From: Clostridiales bacterium
GTDB lineage: Bacteria; Bacillota; Clostridia; Lachnospirales; Lachnospiraceae
Assembly: GCA_015655565.1 (NCBI GenBank)
Contig: JAATEU010000411.1
Span: 1 to 10,760, forward strand
Direction: 5' to 3'
Length of the DNA stretch: 10,760 bases
Part shown: one piece after another, positions 2,080-10,575 of the stretch
Numbering within the stretch: position 1 is the stretch's first letter
Layout of the letters: each line of letters opens with the position of its first letter
Made by a program: the position numbers and the translations under genes
Notes under the pieces: model-generated
Seen by the model: the letters and a program-made list of their open reading frames with translations, nothing else
What the model was told of the DNA's origin: nothing
Databases searched by the model: none

Positions 2080-2706
2080 CTATTCCAGTTCATTCAATAT
2101 CTCTTTTGCAATATCTGCCACATAGCTGTTATCTTTCAAGTTATTCTGCACTTCATTTTTCCAGTTGGTTTCGTTAAGAATGCTGGCAAAATCAATATAA
2201 AGTGCTTCAATTTCCTCACGACCAACTTTATAGGACACATCAGAAAAGCGGTAGATAATATACTCTAAATTATCAATAAGAGCAAAAGCGGCAGTTGAGT
2301 TATAAATCAAAGATTTTTTTACTTCATTTTCATATATCTCATTGAGTTCATCCGTAGAGCCAAATGCGGCAAATGATTTATGGCTCATGCTCTCATTGCC
2401 AACATTAAGCAAAATATCTTGGTAATCAATTTGCACTGTAAAACTATCAGAAACTAATTGGAATTTCATTTCAGATGTTGCAAGCGGGAGATGCCAAAAT
2501 AGATTGATAGTATTTGAGTTATTGCCCATGTATTCGTTCTTATAAGGCAGAATATAGTTTATATCATGTGTAGTTGCCTCTAATTGCGCTGATAAATACT
2601 GTTCTTCCTTAGCATTATATTGGGGAACAATAACAAACTGCACGATGCTAAAGAGTGCAATACCAGCCATCAGTAATCCAATAATCAGTTTGTTTTTATT
2701 CTTCAT
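2080..2706 (-). CDS. Membrane-anchored DUF4825-like protein, last gene of PadR operon
   Basis: A protein of 208 residues with one N-terminal membrane anchor or uncleaved signal (about 7-27, after KNKNK) and an extracytoplasmic remainder. Residues about 48-135 (ILPYKNEYMGNNSNTINLF, then FTVQIDY) resemble DUF4825, a domain of unknown function in Firmicute membrane proteins. I chose ATG at 2706 over the GTG at 2715: the AGGTG at 2713-2717 spaces well to the ATG and overlaps the GTG. With this start the gene overlaps the upstream membrane gene by 11 bases, so the two are probably translationally coupled. It is the third gene of the padR operon, ending at the bidirectional terminator. Probably a surface sensor or envelope accessory protein (inference); no catalytic motif is visible. 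Confidence 0.8.
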   Translation of the reverse strand: MKNKNKLIIGLLMAGIALFSIVQFVIVPQYNAKEEQYLSAQLEATTHDINYILPYKNEYMGNNSNTINLFWHLPLATSEMKFQLVSDSFTVQIDYQDILLNVGNESMSHKSFAAFGSTDELNEIYENEVKKSLIYNSTAAFALIDNLEYIIYRFSDVSYKVGREEIEALYIDFASILNETNWKNEVQNNLKDNSYVADIAKEILNELE

Positions 2707-3379
2707 TACTTTCACCTACTTCGTGTTTTAATATAAGTTTAGGGAGTTTCTGTATTATAAGCGGTATAATAACGGTAACAAAAGGAGCAAAATACCTTAT
2801 TGCCATTAAAGCGAAATTATACGGCCCATCTATACGGATAGGTTTTGAAAACCATATATTGCTGCTAAAATACAATCCGGTTACAATCAAAACGCAAACT
2901 GTAACAAAGATACCCCAAATCAACCATGCAGTTTTCCCCAGCTTAATATAACGATTGATATTTACATACTGCTGTTTTTCTATACCGCTCTTAGCTTTAT
3001 TTGCTGCTATGCAAAAATAGACAATGCCCACAACTATGATTGAACAAAACAGCAATAGGTTTATGGGAATAAAATCAGCAAATAAAGTAAACGGAATGGT
3101 AACAATCCAACCAATAACAAGATAAAGTAATGATTGCTGCAAACTTTCCAATTTGTATTGATTAATATATATATTCTTGTTGCCATCTACTAGATTATCA
3201 ATGTTTGTTATGCTGTCTTTGGCTTTCTGAATTGCAGTTTTTTCATCAAGTCCGCTTGCAATCAAATCCGATTTTTTTGCTTCAAGATTGCTAAGTATCT
3301 CTGCTTTCAGTTCATCTATATTTTTAGTTTTTCTATACTTACTGAACAAGCTATCAACATAATTTTTCAACTCACTCAT
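2696..3379 (-). CDS. Four-helix membrane protein with PadR-associated permease-prefix/DUF1700-like N-terminus
   Basis: A 227-residue membrane protein. Residues 1-70 are soluble, helical and charged (LKNYVDSLFSKYRKTKNIDE, then a DEKTAIQKAKDSI segment). This is the pattern of the 'permease prefix' / DUF1700-type domain that typically sits downstream of PadR regulators. Four predicted membrane helices follow at about 83-103, 106-126, 149-171 and 189-209; the C-terminus is short and charged. Its ATG overlaps the end of the PadR gene as ATGA (3376-3379), and it overlaps the next gene, so the three form one operon. An AAAGGA about 10 bases upstream could be its ribosome binding site. In this kind of operon the membrane protein is thought to act in envelope stress or drug response under PadR control; the actual substrate or partner is unknown. 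Confidence 0.82.
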   Translation of the reverse strand: MSELKNYVDSLFSKYRKTKNIDELKAEILSNLEAKKSDLIASGLDEKTAIQKAKDSITNIDNLVDGNKNIYINQYKLESLQQSLLYLVIGWIVTIPFTLFADFIPINLLLFCSIIVVGIVYFCIAANKAKSGIEKQQYVNINRYIKLGKTAWLIWGIFVTVCVLIVTGLYFSSNIWFSKPIRIDGPYNFALMAIRYFAPFVTVIIPLIIQKLPKLILKHEVGESNEE

Positions 3380-3720
3380 TGTGCATGATTCCTTTCAATT
3401 AGTTGGCTTATTAAATCTTTTGCTACCTTCCAATCGGCAACAGATTTATTATAGGTTTCTTCTCCTGGCTTTGTAATTTTATAATATTTACGCCGCCCGC
3501 CTTGACTTTCATCACCCCAATAGGATTGTATTAAATTTGCTTTTTCTAATCTTTTCAGGCTGGTATAGAGTGATGGTTCTTTTAATTCATATAAACGATT
3601 ACTGATTAAGCCAATAGTTTTTATGATTTCATACCCATAGTTATCACTATCCATTAAGACTCGCAGGATTATTGTATCAATATGCCCACGAATCAAATCA
3701 CTGCTAATTGAATCGTTCAC
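3376..3720 (-). CDS. PadR-family transcriptional regulator
   Basis: A 114-residue winged-helix repressor. Features of the family are present: LRVLMDSDNYGYEIIKTI near 19-36, the SLYTSLKRLEKANLIQSYW recognition-helix region (50-68), the wing QGGRRKYYKITKPGEE (73-88) and a C-terminal dimerisation helix to about 108. The start is GTG at 3720, set by a strong AAGGAGGT seven bases upstream; no ATG fits better. First gene of a three-gene minus-strand operon with a four-base overlap to the next. PadR proteins usually repress their own operon and release DNA when a ligand, often an antibiotic or phenolic compound, binds. Consistent with autoregulation, a palindrome lies in the spacer of the promoter just upstream. 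The inducing ligand cannot be read from the sequence. Confidence 0.93.
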   Translation of the reverse strand: MNDSISSDLIRGHIDTIILRVLMDSDNYGYEIIKTIGLISNRLYELKEPSLYTSLKRLEKANLIQSYWGDESQGGRRKYYKITKPGEETYNKSVADWKVAKDLISQLIERNHAQ

Positions 3721-4033: not shown

Positions 4034-4882
4034 ATGAGTTTGGCAGATAAAATATTTATTGATATGTGTAAGGATGTTTTAGAAAACGGTGTCAGCACAG
4101 AGGGTGAAAAGGTCCGCCCAAAGTGGGAGGATGGCACAAGCGCTTATACCATTAAAAAATTCGGCGTGGTAAACCGTTATGATTTATCCGTGGAATTTCC
4201 GGCTATTACCTTAAGAAGGACAGCAATTAAAAGCTGTATCGATGAAATATTATGGATATGGCAGAAGAAATCCAATAATGTAAAGGAACTGCTCAGTCAT
4301 ATCTGGGACAGCTGGGCAGATGAAACCGGCTCTATCGGTAAAGCCTACGGCTATCAGTTAGGAGTAAAGCATAAATACAAAGAAGGGGAAATGGATCAGG
4401 TTGACCGGGTGATTTATGATTTAAAAAACAATCCCTATAGCCGCCGTATTATGACCAATATCTATGTGCATCAGGATCTTCACGAAATGAACCTGTATCC
4501 CTGTGCCTACAGCATGACCTTTAATGTTGCGAAAGCCAAGGATAGTGACAGGCTTAAATTAAATGCCATTTTAAACCAGCGTTCCCAGGATATATTAGCG
4601 GCAAATAATTGGAATGTATGCCAATATGCAGTTTTGGTCCATATGTTAGCCCAGGTTTGTGACATGGAGGTGGGTGAATTAGTTCATGTAATAGCAGATG
4701 CCCATATTTATGACAGGCATATTCCAATCATTGAGGAAATGCTTACAAGACCTGCCCATGATGCGCCTACCTTTTGGATGAATCCGGATATAAAGGATTT
4801 TTATAAATTTACGGTGGAAGATTTCAGGCTGGATAATTATGTAACAGGTCCTAAAATTGAAAATATTCCGGTGGCGGTATAA
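4034..4882 (+). CDS. thyA: Thymidylate synthase ThyA (variant active-site loop)
   Basis: Converts dUMP to dTMP with methylenetetrahydrofolate, releasing dihydrofolate; cytoplasmic. At 282 residues it is close to the usual ThyA length. Visible landmarks: phosphate-binding RR in NPYSRRIM (137-138), catalytic Cys157 in LYPCAYSM, LNQRSQD (180-186) for dUMP binding, Asn194 in NNWNVCQYA, the ADAHIYDRH block (221-229) and C-terminal IPVAV. The loop differs from the E. coli type PPCHxxxQF: His after the Cys is Ala and the Gln is Thr; I recall similar sequences in other clostridia, so this is a subgroup rather than damage. The start has AAAGGAG about seven bases upstream. The DHFR gene follows after 134 bases, the logical partner because it recycles the dihydrofolate produced here. 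Confidence 0.96.
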   Translation: MSLADKIFIDMCKDVLENGVSTEGEKVRPKWEDGTSAYTIKKFGVVNRYDLSVEFPAITLRRTAIKSCIDEILWIWQKKSNNVKELLSHIWDSWADETGSIGKAYGYQLGVKHKYKEGEMDQVDRVIYDLKNNPYSRRIMTNIYVHQDLHEMNLYPCAYSMTFNVAKAKDSDRLKLNAILNQRSQDILAANNWNVCQYAVLVHMLAQVCDMEVGELVHVIADAHIYDRHIPIIEEMLTRPAHDAPTFWMNPDIKDFYKFTVEDFRLDNYVTGPKIENIPVAV

Positions 4883-4887
4883 GTGCA

Positions 4888-4931
4888 GGAATATGATAAT
4901 GAATTCCACAGGAGATTTATTATCATATTCC
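4888..4931 (+). repeat. Perfect 13-bp inverted repeat between thyA and the DHFR gene
   Basis: Arms GGAATATGATAAT (4888-4900) and ATTATCATATTCC (4919-4931), 18-base loop, starting five bases after the thyA stop. There is no T-run behind it, so it is a poor terminator. It could be a processing or stability element that sets the ratio of thyA and DHFR messages, or a site for a DNA-binding protein. No good separate promoter for the DHFR gene was found. Confidence 0.65.
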
Positions 4932-5016
4932 CACCGGTGTTTATAACTGGCTGAACGTATTCCTATAAAAGACGGAACCGTAGTTTAAATTACTTATAAA
5001 AAGAAAAGAGGTAAGT

Positions 5017-5508
5017 ATGAATTTAATTGTTGCAGTGGATAAAAATTGGGCCATTGGTTATCAAAATAAACTGTTAATCAGTATACCTGAAGATATGCGT
5101 TTTTTCCGGGAGGAAACTATGAATAAGGTGGTCATAATGGGAAGAAATACCTTAGAAACTTTTCCCGGAGGCAGGCCTTTAAAAAACCGAACCAATATTA
5201 TTATAACTTCAAAACCGGATTTTGCCGTCAAGGATGCCATTGTGGTTCACAGTATTGAAGAGGCAATGAATATGGTCAGGGATTACAAATCAGAAGATGT
5301 ATATGTAATAGGCGGAGCCGGTATTTATAACCAGATGCTGGATTATTGTGATGCAGCTCATGTTACAAAAATAGATTATGCATATCAGGCGGATACGTAT
5401 TTCCCTAATTTAGATGAGAGACAGGACTGGATCATTGAGGCCGAATCGGAAGAGCGTACTTATTATAATATTGAATACGCATTTTGTAAGTATGTAAGAA
5501 AAAAATAA
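5017..5508 (+). CDS. folA: Dihydrofolate reductase
   Basis: NADPH-dependent reduction of dihydrofolate to tetrahydrofolate; cytoplasmic. The 163-residue length is typical. Motifs: LIVAVDKNWAIGYQNKLL (3-20), active-site acid Asp26 in IPEDMRFF, cofactor-binding MGRNTLETFPGGRPL (41-55), Arg58 in NRTNIIIT, the VIGGAGIYNQML nucleotide loop (97-108) and DTYFP (126-130). Unusual: the conserved (M/L)PW before the active site, residues 19-21, is LLI, so the Trp that shapes the substrate pocket is missing. Start ATG has AAAGAGG five bases upstream. Lies behind thyA on the same strand and is probably co-transcribed; the pair forms the dTMP cycle. folA is the conventional name (dfrA in some annotations). 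Confidence 0.93.
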   Translation: MNLIVAVDKNWAIGYQNKLLISIPEDMRFFREETMNKVVIMGRNTLETFPGGRPLKNRTNIIITSKPDFAVKDAIVVHSIEEAMNMVRDYKSEDVYVIGGAGIYNQMLDYCDAAHVTKIDYAYQADTYFPNLDERQDWIIEAESEERTYYNIEYAFCKYVRKK

Positions 5509-5586
5509 AGTTCAGGACGCAGTAAAGTATCCAAAGCAGGCCTCGGATATGCCATGCAGGCGGGTGTGAATTCAATGGGAGTTGAA

Positions 5587-6258
5587 ATGACAGAAATAAT
5601 AAAAAATAATATTCTTTTTAAAGGTTTAACCCGGGAAGAAATTGAAATGTGTTTAAGATGTTCCAATGCAAAAATGAAAGAATACGAAAAAAACCAAATT
5701 ATATTCGGTCAGACGGACCCGCCGAAAGCTTTGTATGTTTTGCTTCAGGGTTCCGTGGCCGTATGTAAGGATACGCCGGATGGAAGAAGATATATTGTTG
5801 CCAATATTGAAGAGAAAGATATATTCGGAGAGGTTTACGTTTTTTTAAATAAAGCGGATTATAATTATTATGCACTTGCCAATACAGATTCCACTGTCCT
5901 AGCAATACCCAAGGAATACTTTTTTTCCACCTGCGATAAAGCCTGTAATGCCCATTCCGTTATCATTCGGAATATGTTGGGAATCCTGGCACAAAAGGCA
6001 TATTTTTTGAATAATAAAGTACAACTGCTGACCAGCGGAAGTTTAAGACGGAAAATAACAAAATACCTTCTGGAAAACTGCAATAATAAAAAATATGTCC
6101 GGCTGAATATGAACCGGGAGCAATTTTCCGCTTATCTGAATGTAACAAGACCTTCCCTTTCCAGAGAGTTGATAAAAATGCAGGAGGACGGACTTATTGA
6201 GGTTGATCGTGATATGGTAAGAATAATGGATTTTGATACACTGGCTTCCTCCTTATAA
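5587..6258 (+). CDS. Crp/Fnr-family transcriptional regulator
   Basis: A 223-residue protein with an N-terminal cyclic-nucleotide-type beta-barrel (about 8-115: NILFKGLTREEIE, then LYVLLQGSVAVC, DIFGEVYVF), a dimerisation helix (about 120-147) and a C-terminal Crp-type winged helix (152-213, recognition region in NREQFSAYLNVTRPSLSREL). There is no N-terminal Cys cluster like that of Fnr; CLRC at 22-25 and several single cysteines are present but do not make a recognised Fe-S motif. The effector could be heme, nitric oxide, a metabolite or none. I chose ATG 5587 because GGGAG at 5577-5581 lies before it and the protein then begins like its family; ATG 5554 and 5575 in the same frame lack a good site. 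It follows the DHFR gene by 78 bases. Confidence 0.88.
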   Translation: MTEIIKNNILFKGLTREEIEMCLRCSNAKMKEYEKNQIIFGQTDPPKALYVLLQGSVAVCKDTPDGRRYIVANIEEKDIFGEVYVFLNKADYNYYALANTDSTVLAIPKEYFFSTCDKACNAHSVIIRNMLGILAQKAYFLNNKVQLLTSGSLRRKITKYLLENCNNKKYVRLNMNREQFSAYLNVTRPSLSRELIKMQEDGLIEVDRDMVRIMDFDTLASSL

Positions 6259-6515
6259 ATCCTGCATGGAATTAGTAATAGATGCCTTTATTTTGCCGGG
6301 AATGCCTGGCTCTACCATTTATTTCATTCAGTCTGTTGAAGTATTGCAGGCACTTTTCATGTTTCTATCTGCTCCCACCTGCGTGTCCTGCACGGGTATA
6401 AATTAAGAGGGCTTGCAGGGTAAGAACCCCTAAGTCATTATAACTCCCAAAAATGTTTATCACATTATCTTAAAAGGAATCCTCATAGAAATGCAGATAT
6501 TTTTAGTTTTACAGA
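6259..6515. other. Intergenic stretch without a recognisable gene
   Basis: Between the Crp/Fnr gene and the first MerR-type promoter. An open frame at 6266-6406 (46 codons) has no ribosome binding site and resembles nothing I know. A short GC-rich stem, GCCGGG/CCTGGC near 6296-6311, follows the Crp/Fnr gene without a T-run. A TTTATCACATTA at about 6455-6466 contains a TCACA half-site of the kind Crp-type proteins bind, but no convincing second half. No RNA gene was recognised. Confidence 0.5.
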
Positions 6516-6546
6516 TTGACTCTATATTTATGGCAGAGTATATAAT
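6516..6546 (+). promoter_or_regulatory. MerR-type promoter P1 (19-bp spacer) upstream of the dehydrogenase remnant and merR
   Basis: TTGACT (6516-6521), a 19-base spacer and TATAAT (6541-6546). The overlapping dyad has ACTCTAT at 6519-6525 and GCAGAGT at 6533-6539, five of seven positions paired. The over-long spacer with a centred dyad is the hallmark of promoters activated by DNA distortion by MerR proteins. It would transcribe the dead dehydrogenase gene and then the regulator gene at 6821, giving autoregulation. Confidence 0.78.
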
Positions 6547-6588
6547 ACAGCAAAATCAGTAATAAGTGATGCAAAGGAATAATATACG

Positions 6589-6789
6589 ATGAAAACCTAT
6601 GATATTAAGAAGGCTGTAATTGTTGGTGCAGGATTAATGGGAGCATCCATTGCCCGGTCTTTTTTGCAATAGGGATTTAATACTGCTGCAATGGTATAAA
6701 TTAACCTTGAAAACCGTAATAAAGTAAGGTATGATTTTTTTTAATCTCTTTGGGACCGGGTTTTTGTAACAACAGCCGTGAAGGTTACC
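6589..6789 (+). pseudogene. Decayed NAD-binding dehydrogenase N-terminus (3-hydroxyacyl-CoA dehydrogenase-like)
   Basis: ATG at 6589 opens MKTYDIKKA followed by VIVGAGLMGASIARSF, a Rossmann-fold start with the GxGxxG pattern and the LMG.(S/G)IA.(S/V)F signature of 3-hydroxyacyl-CoA dehydrogenases. The frame is broken by TAG at 6670, then resumes as GFNTAAMV, stops at TAA 6697, resumes as INLENRNKVRYDFF and stops again at TAA 6742. The second piece still looks like the second beta-strand and following helix (family pattern: MVDIN.EN..K), so the original frame is retained with nonsense codons only. The rest of the gene is gone; the MerR gene starts soon after. Other NAD-binding families with the same fold are possible. 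It lies directly behind promoter P1. Confidence 0.65.
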
Positions 6790-6820
6790 GGGAGTGCTGT
6801 TAAAAAAGGAGGTGGCTAAC

Positions 6821-7642
6821 GTGGATGGATTGTATTCTATTGGTGAGACAGCAAAAATAATGGGTATCTCGGTTCAAACATTGAGAAACTATTCCAATTT
6901 AGAATTATTGAAACCTCAATACGTTGATTCGAATACAGGTTACCGCTATTATTCTTTTGAGCAATTTCATTATATTGACCGGATAAAATATTTGAGGAAT
7001 TTGGGAGTTTCCTTAAGTGAGATAGATGATGTTTTAAAAAACGGCGATATTAATAAACTGACTTATTATCTGGGAAAACAGAAAAAGCGTATTGAAAATG
7101 AAATGAAAAAACTTCAGGAAACATGTGAAGATATCGGCTGGTACATTGATTATTTTAACTTCATGAATTCCCACCATCTGGATAATATTCCATATATAAA
7201 GCATTTAGATAAGAGGTACATTTTAAGTATTGAATTCAGAAAAGAAGATACCATAGAGTCAGTTGAAACAAGACTTGTTTCCTTAAGGTCACAGCCGGTT
7301 ATGTCCAATGTCCGGTTCTTAAGACAATTCGGTTATATTGCAGATTTTGAAGAACTGTTAAAAAAGAGATTCTGCAGGAAAGAATATTTCATTTATATTA
7401 AAGATAAGACGGAACTGGAGCCCCAAAGATATAAAGAACTGCCGGCAGGAGAGTACCTGTGTTTCCGTGCCCGGATCTGCACGGATGACTGGAATTCGGA
7501 CTTAATCAAGAAATATTTTAGTAGTTTTCAAGAGCGGCCTGCTTATGTAATTGCCAATGAACATGAGGATAATCTGAAAGAATATCATAATTGTCCTTAT
7601 GAGATTCAGATTTTGATAAATGATGATAAAAAAAGGGGTTGA
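6821..7642 (+). CDS. MerR-family activator with BmrR/GyrI-like ligand-binding domain
   Basis: A 273-residue regulator. Residues 4-72 are the MerR winged helix: YSIGETAKIMGISVQTLRNY (5-24), then the wing LLKPQYVDSNTGYRYYSFEQ (29-48) and YLRNLGVSLSEIDDVL. Residues about 75-113 form the dimerising coiled coil. Residues about 122-267 resemble the effector-binding (GyrI-like) domain of BmrR-type multidrug sensors (KELPAGEYLCFRA, ending in CPYEIQILI). The start is GTG 6821: AAGGAGGT at 6806-6813 gives a 7-base spacing. The in-frame GTG at 6794 lies upstream of that site. Three nearby promoters with 19-bp spacers and a shared dyad are its likely targets: one ahead of its own transcript, one at its stop codon and one before the PLP enzyme pair. 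The ligand is likely a small organic molecule, unknown here. Confidence 0.92.
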   Translation: MDGLYSIGETAKIMGISVQTLRNYSNLELLKPQYVDSNTGYRYYSFEQFHYIDRIKYLRNLGVSLSEIDDVLKNGDINKLTYYLGKQKKRIENEMKKLQETCEDIGWYIDYFNFMNSHHLDNIPYIKHLDKRYILSIEFRKEDTIESVETRLVSLRSQPVMSNVRFLRQFGYIADFEELLKKRFCRKEYFIYIKDKTELEPQRYKELPAGEYLCFRARICTDDWNSDLIKKYFSSFQERPAYVIANEHEDNLKEYHNCPYEIQILINDDKKRG

Positions 7643-7669
7643 CTCTATAGCAGTTATAGGTTTTATAAT
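7639..7669 (+). promoter_or_regulatory. MerR-type promoter P2 (19-bp spacer), overlapping the merR stop codon
   Basis: TTGACT (7639-7644), 19-base spacer, TATAAT (7664-7669). Dyad ACTCTAT (7642-7648) and ATAGGTT (7656-7662), five of seven positions paired, same offset as in P1 and P3. The TGA stop of the regulator gene (7640-7642) lies inside the -35 box. The only thing downstream before P3 is a hairpin and a Sel1-repeat remnant. Confidence 0.75.
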
Positions 7670-7680
7670 AATAAAAACTT

Positions 7681-7736
7681 AAAGTGGCTGTGTATTTTAC
7701 GAAGATGTAAAATATACACCACTTTATTGTTGTTAT
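7681..7736 (+). terminator. Long stem-loop just after P2; terminator of merR and possible attenuator
   Basis: Outer arms AAAGTGG (7681-7687) and CCACTTT (7719-7725), inner arms TGTATTTTAC (7691-7700) and GTAAAATATACA (7707-7718), the latter with a two-base bulge. Behind it is a T-rich but interrupted tract. It can terminate merR transcripts, yet it also starts only about five bases after the start expected for P2 transcripts. Confidence 0.55.
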
Positions 7737-7769
7737 TATATAATAGGGTGTTCCGGCATACCAAAACCC

Positions 7770-7991
7770 ATGTGCCGACACTGGTCCCCGGTATATCGGG
7801 ATGGCAAAGGAGGCTGTTCCATTGATAAAAAGAGAGCAGGGGAATATTTCAGAAAAGCTTATGATAAAAATTGGGAAGAAGCCATTTTTATGGATTTTAA
7901 ATTATTTGACGGTGAATTTCAGTATTATGAAAATAAACGTGAAATAAAGAAGCTTTTATCCATAAAGGAGTTAAGTTTCAAAAGGAATTAG
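7770..7991 (+). pseudogene. Remnant of a Sel1-repeat (TPR-like) protein
   Basis: A 73-codon frame. YRDGKGGCSIDKKRAGEYF at residues 9-27 continues into RKAYDKNWEEAI. This matches the Sel1 repeat pattern (Y..G.GV..D..KA..YY.KA...G...A) found in protein-interaction scaffolds. Only one repeat is present where functional proteins have several, there is no signal sequence, and the ATG at 7770 has no ribosome binding site. An AAAGGAGG at 7806-7813 lies inside the repeat and precedes no good in-frame start. The sequence upstream to 7737 shows no further repeats in this frame. I read it as the 3' end of a truncated gene, though a very short translated protein cannot be excluded. Confidence 0.45.
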
Positions 7992-8069
7992 GTAAAAGAT
8001 TTTAACCTCGCAGGCAGCGGCAGCGGATCCGGAATATCCGATTTGACTAAAAAAAGATGGGATTATAGG

Positions 8070-8100
8070 TTGACTCTGTTCCCGGTATAGAGTTTATAAT
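8070..8100 (+). promoter_or_regulatory. MerR-type promoter P3 (19-bp spacer) driving the PLP enzyme pair
   Basis: TTGACT (8070-8075), 19-base spacer, TATAAT (8095-8100). Dyad ACTCTGT (8073-8079) and ATAGAGT (8087-8093), six of seven positions paired and at the same offset as in P1 and P2. The right arm is the best of the three sites. A transcript would start near 8107, with a leader of about 43 bases to the first PLP enzyme gene. Confidence 0.82.
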
Positions 8101-8149
8101 GCAAAAAAACAGATAAAACTGCTGGCCAGCAAAGATTGGAGGAATATAA

Positions 8150-9343
8150 ATGAGTTCAGGAAGCTTTAGTGAAGCTACAAGAATATTATATGAAGGACAT
8201 AAGCTGAAGGGGCTTGCTATGACACCGGAGGCATTTCCATTATTTAATACTACGGCTTTTACCATGGGGGATTTGGATGATGTTGATAAAACTTATTCAG
8301 AAAAAGGGTATACCTATGTCAGGACAAGGAATCCGAACAGGACAGCCCTGGCGGAAGCCATATCCTTCCTGGAACTGGGAAGCCATTCATTGATTTTTTC
8401 CTCCGGAATGGGAGGAATTACGACAACCTATTTCTCTTTATTAAACCCGGGGGATCATTTCATTTGTAATTCCTATATTTACGGTGAAACCTTTGATGCG
8501 ATAAACCAGTTGGTCAGGAAATGCTCCGTGGAGGTGGATTTTGTCGATTTCACTGATTTAGAACTGTTAAGGTCGGCAATAAAGCCAAATACGAAAATGT
8601 TATATACGGAAGTCGTTTCAAATCCGACGGATGTAATCGCGGATATTGAAGAAATCGCTAAGATTGCATGCTTAGCCGGTGCGTGGCTTATGGTTGATAA
8701 TACTTTTACAACACCGCTGGCAGTAAAACCCCTATCTTTGGGAGCGGATATCGTAATAAACAGCTTAACAAAATTTTTGAACGGCCACAGTGATGCCCTG
8801 GCAGGTTCCATAACCGTGAAAGATTATAATCTGTTCAGCCGCATCCAGGAGATCCGGATGCTGACAGGTACTTCTGCCGAACCCTATACGGCATGGACGG
8901 TGTTCAAGGGCTTGCAGACGGTTCATCTCCGTGTCAATAAACAGATGGAAAATGCGGCTAAGCTTGCAGGGGCGCTGGAAGCAAGCCCGGTTGTACTGAA
9001 AGTGAACCATCCCTCTTTAAAATCAAATCCGCAGCATGAGCTTGCAAAGAAGATTTTTAAGGATGATAATCATATGACCGGAGTGTTAAGTTTTGACATG
9101 CCCGACGATAAGGAAAAGATTAATCAGTTTATGAACCGTCTCCGGCTTGCCCACTATGCCCCTACTTTAGGCGGCATACGGACCAGCTTATCCCATCCCG
9201 TACACTCTTCCCATCATCATGTTCCGGAAGCGGAAAGGAAAAAGATGGGTATTTCTTACGGAACGATGAGAGTTTCCTGCGGTATTGAGGATGCGGAGGA
9301 TTTAACTGCGGATTTTATGCAGGCTTTGGAAGTTTTTAAATAG
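8150..9343 (+). CDS. PLP-dependent Cys/Met metabolism (trans-sulfuration family) enzyme, first copy
   Basis: A 397-residue fold-type I PLP enzyme of the family that includes methionine gamma-lyase, cystathionine synthase and lyases, and O-acetylhomoserine sulfhydrylase. Visible: YVRTRNPNR (56-64; Tyr and Arg that reach the phosphate of the partner subunit), SSGMGG phosphate loop (84-89), catalytic Tyr111 in YGETFD, Asp183 in MVDNTFTTP, Schiff-base Lys208 in SLTKFLNGHSD, and carboxylate-binding Arg374 in TMRVSCGIED. Differences from well-known members: Glu113 where methionine gamma-lyase has its special Cys, and Arg344 in TLGGIRTS where cystathionine enzymes have Glu. The reaction is therefore open: gamma- or beta-elimination or a gamma-replacement. 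Start ATG follows GGAGG by six bases. It is the first gene behind P3; a paralog follows after 23 bases. Confidence 0.9.
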   Translation: MSSGSFSEATRILYEGHKLKGLAMTPEAFPLFNTTAFTMGDLDDVDKTYSEKGYTYVRTRNPNRTALAEAISFLELGSHSLIFSSGMGGITTTYFSLLNPGDHFICNSYIYGETFDAINQLVRKCSVEVDFVDFTDLELLRSAIKPNTKMLYTEVVSNPTDVIADIEEIAKIACLAGAWLMVDNTFTTPLAVKPLSLGADIVINSLTKFLNGHSDALAGSITVKDYNLFSRIQEIRMLTGTSAEPYTAWTVFKGLQTVHLRVNKQMENAAKLAGALEASPVVLKVNHPSLKSNPQHELAKKIFKDDNHMTGVLSFDMPDDKEKINQFMNRLRLAHYAPTLGGIRTSLSHPVHSSHHHVPEAERKKMGISYGTMRVSCGIEDAEDLTADFMQALEVFK

Positions 9344-9366
9344 TATCTGGAATGGAGGAACTGACT

Positions 9367-10575
9367 ATGGAAATTTTTAAAAATACGGACAGGGAATTTT
9401 CTTTTGAAACGGAAATCCTGAGGCAGGGTGCCTATATTAATGCGCCCGCCACCAATCCGGAGGCTGCACCGATTTACTTAACGACTGCCTTTAACGTAGA
9501 GGATTTGGAGGACTTGTATGACAGATATGAGAAGAAGGGATTTTGCTATAACCGCAACCGAAATCCCAACCGGAATGCCCTGATTGATCTAATGACCTAT
9601 TCGGAAGGAGGAGAGTCTTCTATTATCTGTACTTCCGGGATGGGGGCAATTTCTACCGCAATCCTGTCCCTGGTGAAACAGGGAGACCATATTGTATCAG
9701 ATATGACACTGTATGGCGAAACAATTGACATATTCAAAGAGATCTTACCGAATTACGGAGTAGAAGTAACTTTTGCTGATTTTACTAAATTAGAGGAGAT
9801 AAAAGCGGCAATCAGGCCGAACACGAAAATCTTATATACGGAAACGGTATCAAATCCAATGATAACGGTTGTTGATTTAGACAGTACTGCTGAAATTGCA
9901 CATAAAAATAATGCGATTTTTGTAGTAGACAATACCTTCATGACTTCAGTAGGAATCAGGCCCTTGAAACATGGTGCGGATTTAGTGGTTAACAGCCTTA
10001 CAAAATTTGCAAACGGCCATAACGATGCAATCTGCGGCGCAGTTACAGGAAGGGCCGAGCTCGTGCAGGAAGCATACCGGTATCAGGTACTGCTTGGAAA
10101 TGCAGCGGACGCATTTACTTCCTGGCTGGTGCAGAGGGGCATGAGGACCATGGCCCTGCGTGTGGAAAAACAAATGTCCAATGCCGCAAAATTAGCAAAA
10201 GCTTTGGCTGCTTCCCCTTATGTTCTGAAAGTGAATCACCCAAGTTTGCCGGATCATCCGCAGCACGGCCTGGCAATGAAATTATTTGGCGATGAAGAAC
10301 ATTGCGGCGGTATGCTCAGCATAGTCCTTCCGGATAGTATGGAAAAGATTAATTTATTTATGCGTAACCTGAATTTAGCACATTATGCCATGACCTTAGG
10401 CGGTTACAGAACAACGATTGCCCATCCGGTTTCCTCCTCCCATTATGATACCCCGGAAGAAGAAAGAATTAAAATGGGAATCACCTTCGGACTGCTCCGT
10501 ATTTCCGCAGGGATTGAAAAAAGTGAGGATCTGATAAATGATTTTCTGGAAGCTTTAAAGGTTTTTAGTGAATAG
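9367..10575 (+). CDS. PLP-dependent Cys/Met metabolism (trans-sulfuration family) enzyme, second copy
   Basis: A 402-residue paralog of the preceding protein with the same special residues: YNRNRNPNR (61-69), TSGMGA (89-94), Tyr116 and Glu118 in YGETID, Asp188 in VVDNTFMTS, Lys213 in SLTKFANGHND, Arg348 in TLGGYRTT, Arg378 in LLRISAGIE. The segment VLKVNHPSL is identical in both copies. It has a 17-residue N-terminal region (FKNTDREFSFET) unlike the first copy. I chose ATG 9367: GGAGG at 9354-9358 gives an 8-base spacing, while ATG 9352 in the same frame overlaps that site. Same transcript as the first copy. Family members are tetramers of tight dimers with shared active sites, so the two could form a mixed oligomer or act on successive substrates (inference). 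Confidence 0.9.
   Translation: MEIFKNTDREFSFETEILRQGAYINAPATNPEAAPIYLTTAFNVEDLEDLYDRYEKKGFCYNRNRNPNRNALIDLMTYSEGGESSIICTSGMGAISTAILSLVKQGDHIVSDMTLYGETIDIFKEILPNYGVEVTFADFTKLEEIKAAIRPNTKILYTETVSNPMITVVDLDSTAEIAHKNNAIFVVDNTFMTSVGIRPLKHGADLVVNSLTKFANGHNDAICGAVTGRAELVQEAYRYQVLLGNAADAFTSWLVQRGMRTMALRVEKQMSNAAKLAKALAASPYVLKVNHPSLPDHPQHGLAMKLFGDEEHCGGMLSIVLPDSMEKINLFMRNLNLAHYAMTLGGYRTTIAHPVSSSHYDTPEEERIKMGITFGLLRISAGIEKSEDLINDFLEALKVFSE

Follow-up and report, generated by a model that had tools for sequence, protein, structure and literature searches.

Why should one MerR-family regulator gene lie among three promoters of the same design? A 10,760-nucleotide stretch from a Lachnospiraceae genome (Clostridiales bacterium, contig JAATEU010000411.1; hereafter the window), which is one whole contig of a 3.18-Mb, 63%-complete metagenome-assembled genome (MAG), raises this question. 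The first-pass annotation of this DNA had described three promoters with TTGACT and TATAAT boxes separated by 19 bp, and we find them exact, all on the plus strand, at 6516-6546 (site 1, upstream of a dehydrogenase gene fragment and the MerR gene), 7639-7669 (site 2, for which a Sel1-repeat gene fragment is the nearest downstream gene) and 8070-8100 (site 3, 50 bp upstream of the gene for a pyridoxal phosphate (PLP) enzyme, PLP enzyme A). The dyad reported with them, close to ACTCTAT-N7-ATAGAGT, begins at base 4 of the –35 box in all three, with 5/7, 5/7 and 6/7 arm positions paired at sites 1, 2 and 3, and the regulator gene does lie between the first and second sites. Our analysis makes it highly likely that these sites are the operators of the adjacent regulator, a BmrR-type MerR protein, and that they control an inducible pathway for amino-acid uptake and degradation which is partly decayed in this genome.

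The three sites stand far above background. Shuffling the window 200 times yielded the box pair, at any spacer from 15 to 21, on average 0.04 times per shuffle and never more than once. A matrix built from 22 sites of other genomes, with the window sites excluded, ranks sites 3, 1 and 2 first (36.9, 33.7 and 33.3 bits), the next place in the window scoring 5.6 bits and the maximum in 60 first-order Markov sequences reaching 12.4 bits. A chance origin is rejected by these shuffles, by the matrix and by the spacer statistics in relatives given below. Ordinary sigma-70 promoters do not account for the sites either, as a scan with 16-18 bp spacers returned 16 sites, where 13.1 were expected, and not one of them coincided with sites 1-3; an RNA switch is rejected for lack of any Rfam match within the window at gathering score. 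In the window's own assembly, the site consensus with up to three mismatches matched only at the three window sites, and a reversed control matched nowhere. Allowing one mismatch, the boxes without the dyad gave 50 matches versus 45 for the control, so the dyad is what discriminates; near-matches on two other contigs of this genome (C490 and C423) were discarded because, judged by eye, they miss the right arm.

Conservation of the sites was followed with 36 aligned regulator homologues and with 39 loci fetched from relatives, making 40 loci with the window (L068 and G006:C28 are one contig of 45,837 bases). In the 39 loci, exact box pairs number 12 at spacer 19, and no other spacer between 13 and 25 has more than 2; with one mismatch allowed and TTGA kept, there are 36 at spacer 19 and at most 9 elsewhere in that range. 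When boxes and dyad are both required, 51 sites are found at spacer 19, in 33 of the 40 loci, compared with 1, 1, 4, 2, 0, 3, 1 and 0 at spacers 15, 16, 17, 18, 20, 21, 22 and 23. The 40 loci are not independent cases, since they include near-duplicates (L097/L101 and L096/L098). Nearly all of the 51 sites (49) have a same-strand open reading frame (ORF) starting within –60 to +500 bp of the site end. With ORFs called mechanically by script and labelled by cluster, the first downstream gene encodes a PLP enzyme at 23 sites, Ord at 5, MerR at 4, an amino-acid substrate-binding protein at 3, and a DoeB-like, AGCS or HAD protein at 2 each, the others occurring once each. A comparison of the same locus between relatives, suggested with the first description of the sites, thus finds both dyad and 19-bp spacing retained in most of them; the refuting outcome named there, their loss in close relatives that still have the genes, was not borne out.

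The closest relative, Anaeromicropila populeti (L065), has the three promoters in the same order with intact genes, and its locus is collinear with the window, aligning to it at the DNA level in matching blocks. There, site 1 precedes an intact 318-amino-acid dehydrogenase of the 3HCDH family and then the MerR gene; site 2 precedes a QueG-like gene, overlooked by the first-pass annotation, and then the intact gene for a 277-amino-acid Sel1 protein; and site 3 precedes PLP enzymes A and B and a MATE transporter. The right arm of window site 1, GCAGAGT, recurs at the same place in the A. populeti site. With the A. populeti proteins as tblastn queries, both remnants that had been recognized in the window are borne out. 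The dehydrogenase fragment (6589-6687, plus strand) keeps the first ~33 of ~318 codons, its 33 N-terminal residues matching the intact protein with an E value of 2e-6, 55% identity and an in-frame stop, and Pfam 3HCDH_N matches it at E 0.008, below gathering. In the Sel1 fragment (7770-7991, plus strand), ~56 of ~277 codons align, 7800-7967 corresponding to residues 174-229 of the intact protein (E 1e-13), and 5 of 7 homologues match it at E≤0.01. A 19-nt direct repeat (6388-6406 and 6686-6704, 89% identical), whose second copy lies at the end of the dehydrogenase similarity, is a possible trace of the dehydrogenase deletion. Seven homologues of the QueG-like protein, named only QueG-like because the L066 homologue scores 45.5 bits against a QueG cut-off of 200, gave a best E value of 0.013 in the window and 0.93 within 7600-8150; the own assembly contains no match at E≤0.001, a weak negative in an incomplete assembly. 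The dehydrogenase and Sel1 units are decayed, and the QueG-like gene is gone from the window. By contrast with these units, the regulator gene and the two PLP genes have uninterrupted reading frames and share 73-83% identity with their A. populeti counterparts. The proposal that the dehydrogenase remnant, the regulator, the Sel1 remnant and the PLP pair form one inducible system therefore agrees with the conserved sites and the collinear relative but overstates the present genome, where two of the three target units are mere fragments and a working regulon comprises at most the regulator and the PLP pair.

The regulator gene runs on the plus strand from a GTG at 6821 to 7642, within an open frame that extends upstream to 6794, and encodes 273 amino acids; its stop codon TGA (7640-7642) falls inside the –35 box of site 2 (7639-7644). 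The N-terminus is a MerR helix-turn-helix (HTH) domain (Pfam MerR_1, E 8e-15, 55 bits versus a gathering score of 21.6, with a query that started one codon late, at 6824), and MerR_1 also recognizes all 36 aligned members (E≤0.01). In a profile search with the regulator, BmrR structures align with positions 2-245 of 269 (E 4e-20), a span that reaches into the effector domain, and an AlphaFold model (mean pLDDT 86.8, pTM 0.65) has an alpha/beta C-terminal part; from this sequence evidence we assign the protein to the BmrR type. The HTH domain, the extent of the profile match and the 19-bp spacer with a dyad, also described for EcmrR (PMC8113463), are features shared with BmrR and EcmrR. Unlike that type, the regulon targets mostly amino-acid enzymes and importers rather than drug efflux, genomes with the regulator have 3-4 promoters, and the Pfam GyrI-like and Cass2 domains are each recognized in just one of the 36 members (E≤0.01). 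The glutamates E247, E249 and E261 of the effector domain and the arginines R132 and R168 (numbering of the homologue alignment) are invariant in 38 orthologues, a pattern that may be suited to binding an amino acid that bears an additional positive charge.

We infer that the regulator binds the three sites, activates from them and regulates its own gene. Its dimer would occupy the dyad inside the over-long 19-bp spacer and, once bound to its effector, would bend and untwist the spacer DNA so that RNA polymerase could use the promoter, the mode of activation on a 19-bp spacer described for EcmrR (PMC8113463). Through site 1 the regulator would control its own synthesis, site 3 would switch on two paralogous lyase-type PLP enzymes, and site 2 would be a leftover promoter in this genome. 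That the sites turn on the PLP enzyme pair is very probable.

Related genomes associate the sites with this type of regulator and add further target units. Among 15 genomes of the genus, scanned with up to three mismatches, four contain sites: three in G000, four in G006, and one each in G001 and G010, where the single site adjoins the genome's own, different MerR gene; the control pattern matched once, in G009. In 299 genomes of the family, scanned with up to two mismatches and at most 8 candidates scored per genome, 8 have sites, and there was no control match among the matches listed. The regulator (E≤1e-40) is present in 3 of these 299 genomes, which have 3, 3 and 4 sites; of the 296 without it, 5 have a single site each and the rest have none. 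In G006, two tandem sites lie upstream of an amino-acid-type ABC operon and one, on another contig, upstream of a second binding protein, and in G091 (A. populeti) sites lie upstream of a Cytidylate_kin2 gene and of an Opp/Nik-type importer. The sites of G063 precede PLP A, PLP B, a gene of a 2-hydroxyacid-dehydrogenase cluster and an M20 peptidase-family gene, as well as QueG-like plus Sel1, kinase-like and Opp-type genes. Because sites in relatives precede importers and QueG-like, Sel1 and dehydrogenase genes, the regulon is best explained as an inducible pathway of amino-acid uptake and degradation. The first-pass annotation had called the regulon self-contained and had proposed a genome-wide matrix scan for additional members; within the 63%-complete own assembly no further site was found with the consensus, but relatives have target units elsewhere. 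The Cytidylate_kin2-family protein recurs near sites or importers (L135 5603-6223, L137 4917-5537, L068 2098-2706 and L069 11323-11931; Pfam was run on the L135 and L068 copies) and has no obvious role in the regulon.

A tree of 38 regulator rows (L069 and L083, missed by the ORF caller, were left out) resolves four context groups. The window's regulator groups with PLP, QueG-like, Sel1 and importer genes. Clade 2 is associated with ornithine degradation: in 5 of 5 loci the site, beside an orthologue of the window regulator, precedes Ord, and in L086, the locus tested, Ord, OraE and OrtB score above cut-offs and OraS is recognized by Pfam. This corresponds to the ord-ort-ora operon of clostridial oxidative ornithine degradation, a pathway described in PMC8803604, and means that regulators of this family have become connected to more than one amino-acid pathway; the operon itself is not present in the window. 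Clade 3 combines PLP enzymes with AGCS or BCCT transporters and homocysteine methyltransferase, and its site arms tend to ACCTTAT rather than ACTCTAT. In clade 4, PLP enzymes accompany B3/4, HAD or DoeB-like proteins; a B3/4 cluster gene (an assignment tested on one locus) lies near the regulator in 7 loci, 5 of which also have PLP enzymes. The latter pairing resembles the canavanine system, composed of a canavanine gamma-lyase and the B3/4 editing protein CtdA (PMC10018355). A canavanine pathway was dropped for the window because it contains no B3/4 gene (no homologue of the clade 4 cluster among its ORFs of at least 70 amino acids), and for clade 4 it is retained as a lead. Plasmid-borne relatives of the B3/4 protein and of PLP B supplied reference sequences, but their context was uninformative. 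Three Morganella genomes (Pseudomonadota; L092, L096 and L098), with a regulator, a PLP enzyme, an AGCS-cluster transporter, ACCTTAT-type arms and weak boxes, fall inside the Bacillota tree, which suggests that their regulator was acquired by transfer.

The two enzymes behind site 3 are separate paralogues of the Cys/Met-metabolism family on the plus strand: PLP enzyme A (8150-9343, 397 amino acids, PF01053 E 2.8e-113, 81% identical to A. populeti) and PLP enzyme B (9352-10575, 407 amino acids, PF01053 E 5.4e-115, 83% identical to A. populeti). They share the family domain with methionine and cystathionine gamma-lyases (E 1e-113 or better) and carry the motifs S-L/M-T-K and R-x-S, which we take to hold the PLP lysine and the carboxylate arginine, respectively. 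Given family and motifs, they may perform a gamma-elimination on an L-amino acid. In a midpoint-rooted tree with long branches, 41 of 43 cluster members form one clade (support 100/99) with the subgroups A, B and C. The two exceptions are L087_02 and L074_12, of which L074_12 nevertheless stands beside a regulator. All 41 clade members have Tyr-Gly-Glu-Thr/Ser (YGE(T/S)) where a methionine-lyase-like Acetoanaerobium reference has YGCT, the cysteine of which presumably corresponds to Cys116 of Pseudomonas putida methionine gamma-lyase. Paracoccus megL has YGNA at this position, so the cysteine is not universal in sequences so named and the control is a weak one. The best 120 MerR clusters and the best 120 PLP A clusters have 33 in common by equally long longest contigs, a rough sign of linkage between regulator and enzyme, as equality may also arise by chance.

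Several results weigh against assigning the sites to this regulator and this pathway. The 22 training sites of the matrix were hand-chosen for resemblance. Seven of the 40 loci (L083, L084, L092, L094, L095, L096 and L098) lack a site with boxes and dyad, three of them being the Morganella loci with their weaker boxes. The Opp-type importer looks more like the nickel/peptide type than like an amino-acid-specific one; its permease passes a nickel-transporter model (Opp2B, 375 versus a cut-off of 350), so import of metal or peptide is possible too. Since the genome is a 63%-complete MAG, errors of assembly may account for some of the apparent decay. The 19-bp spacer with a dyad, which had been read as the mark of activation by a MerR protein, does peak at the regulator loci but is generic: at 28 loci of other MerR genes the spacer likewise peaks at 19 (2 exact pairs, 15 with one mismatch), 12 of these 28 loci reach a best score of 16/19 against 25 of the 40 (including L085, which is not operator-like), and 17 of 28 against 27 of 40 score above every one of the 10 Markov sequences made for the locus. 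In G010, of the same genus, a different MerR protein (38% identical over residues 3-142) has a near-identical 19-bp operator, TTGACTCTATAGTAAGTATAGACATTATAAT (L037, 1077-1107), directly behind its own gene and reading into the next ORF; site 2 and this operator are alike in lying directly behind a MerR gene. Such an operator and the generic layout mean that the arms alone cannot name the regulator. The sites could then be true MerR operators that serve, alone or in addition, another MerR of the same genome, whose assembly has 8 MerR-type matches including the window regulator. We find this quite improbable, because the sites adjoin orthologues of the window regulator across the 40 loci and because none of the 299 family genomes has two or more sites unless it also has the window-type regulator. 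It is just as improbable that the sites are fossils in a wholly decaying locus that regulates nothing any more: the fragmentary dehydrogenase and Sel1 genes and the lost QueG-like gene would fit, whereas the open regulator and PLP genes, with their identity to A. populeti, and the exact boxes kept at all three sites would not.

Assuming that the window regulator does act here, the question becomes what it senses. A multidrug response as in BmrR, Mta or TipA, with a drug-like cation as ligand and the PLP enzymes incidental or detoxifying, draws on the best structural match being BmrR, on the MATE transporter after the PLP pair in A. populeti, on L102, where the site is followed by an MFS gene that comes closest to drug-efflux models (all below cut-off), and on L103, where the site precedes an amino-acid/amine transporter-like gene. 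It is unlikely given the prevalence of amino-acid-related first genes among the 51 sites (PLP, Ord, substrate-binding, AGCS and DoeB-like), and Ord of D-ornithine degradation comes first throughout clade 2. Somewhat less unlikely, though still doubtful, is an ordinary methionine gamma-lyase or homocysteine system whose regulator senses a common sulfur amino acid. Methionine gamma-lyases are indeed the nearest solved structures to the PLP enzymes, and five clade 3 loci have a homocysteine S-methyltransferase cluster gene (one tested, above cut-off), but the enzymes score 297 and 306 bits with the NCBIfam methionine gamma-lyase model TIGR01328, far under its cut-off of 549.7, and form their own clade with a glutamate in place of the Acetoanaerobium cysteine, an argument tempered by Paracoccus megL.

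An amino acid is the probable ligand, since the regulator family mostly targets amino-acid enzymes and importers. That the substrate of the regulon is a gamma-substituted, perhaps cationic, amino acid is a guess prompted by the ornithine group, by the B3/4 link to canavanine and by the glutamate residues; the cationic ligand is the weakest step of our argument, and both the drug-efflux-type MFS gene behind the L102 site and the MATE gene of A. populeti speak against it. A broader scheme, which we put forward tentatively and think rather unlikely to hold as a whole, is that a MerR branch with a BmrR-like pocket exchanged drug ligands for alpha-amino acids that carry a positive or leaving group near the gamma or delta position and was wired to a PLP gamma-lyase subfamily. 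Clade 2 would sense ornithine, clade 3 perhaps S-methylmethionine, and clades 1 and 4 compounds resembling canavanine or canaline; the active-site glutamate of the PLP subfamily would recognize the charged or leaving group; and one operator layout would serve several amino-acid pathways in Bacillota and, by transfer, in Morganella. We found no description of this regulator branch in the open literature (subscription papers not covered). The locus provides operators, regulator and targets together, as a complete and testable set, for a MerR branch tied to amino-acid catabolism, links that branch to ornithine degradation in clostridia and to an uncharacterised pair of PLP enzymes, and captures a regulon in decay, in which promoters outlive their genes.

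The remainder of the window holds genes of other kinds. At 3-1448 the C-terminal part of NrdD (anaerobic ribonucleotide reductase) is fused to a thioredoxin/glutaredoxin-like domain (residues ~394-465, PF00085 E 2.6e-6). The minus strand from 2080 to 3720 encodes a PadR regulator followed by two overlapping genes, one with DUF4825 and the other with a weak VIT1-like membrane match below gathering. Directly upstream of the regulon, 4034-6258 carries thymidylate synthase, dihydrofolate-reductase-like and Crp/Fnr-type regulator genes.

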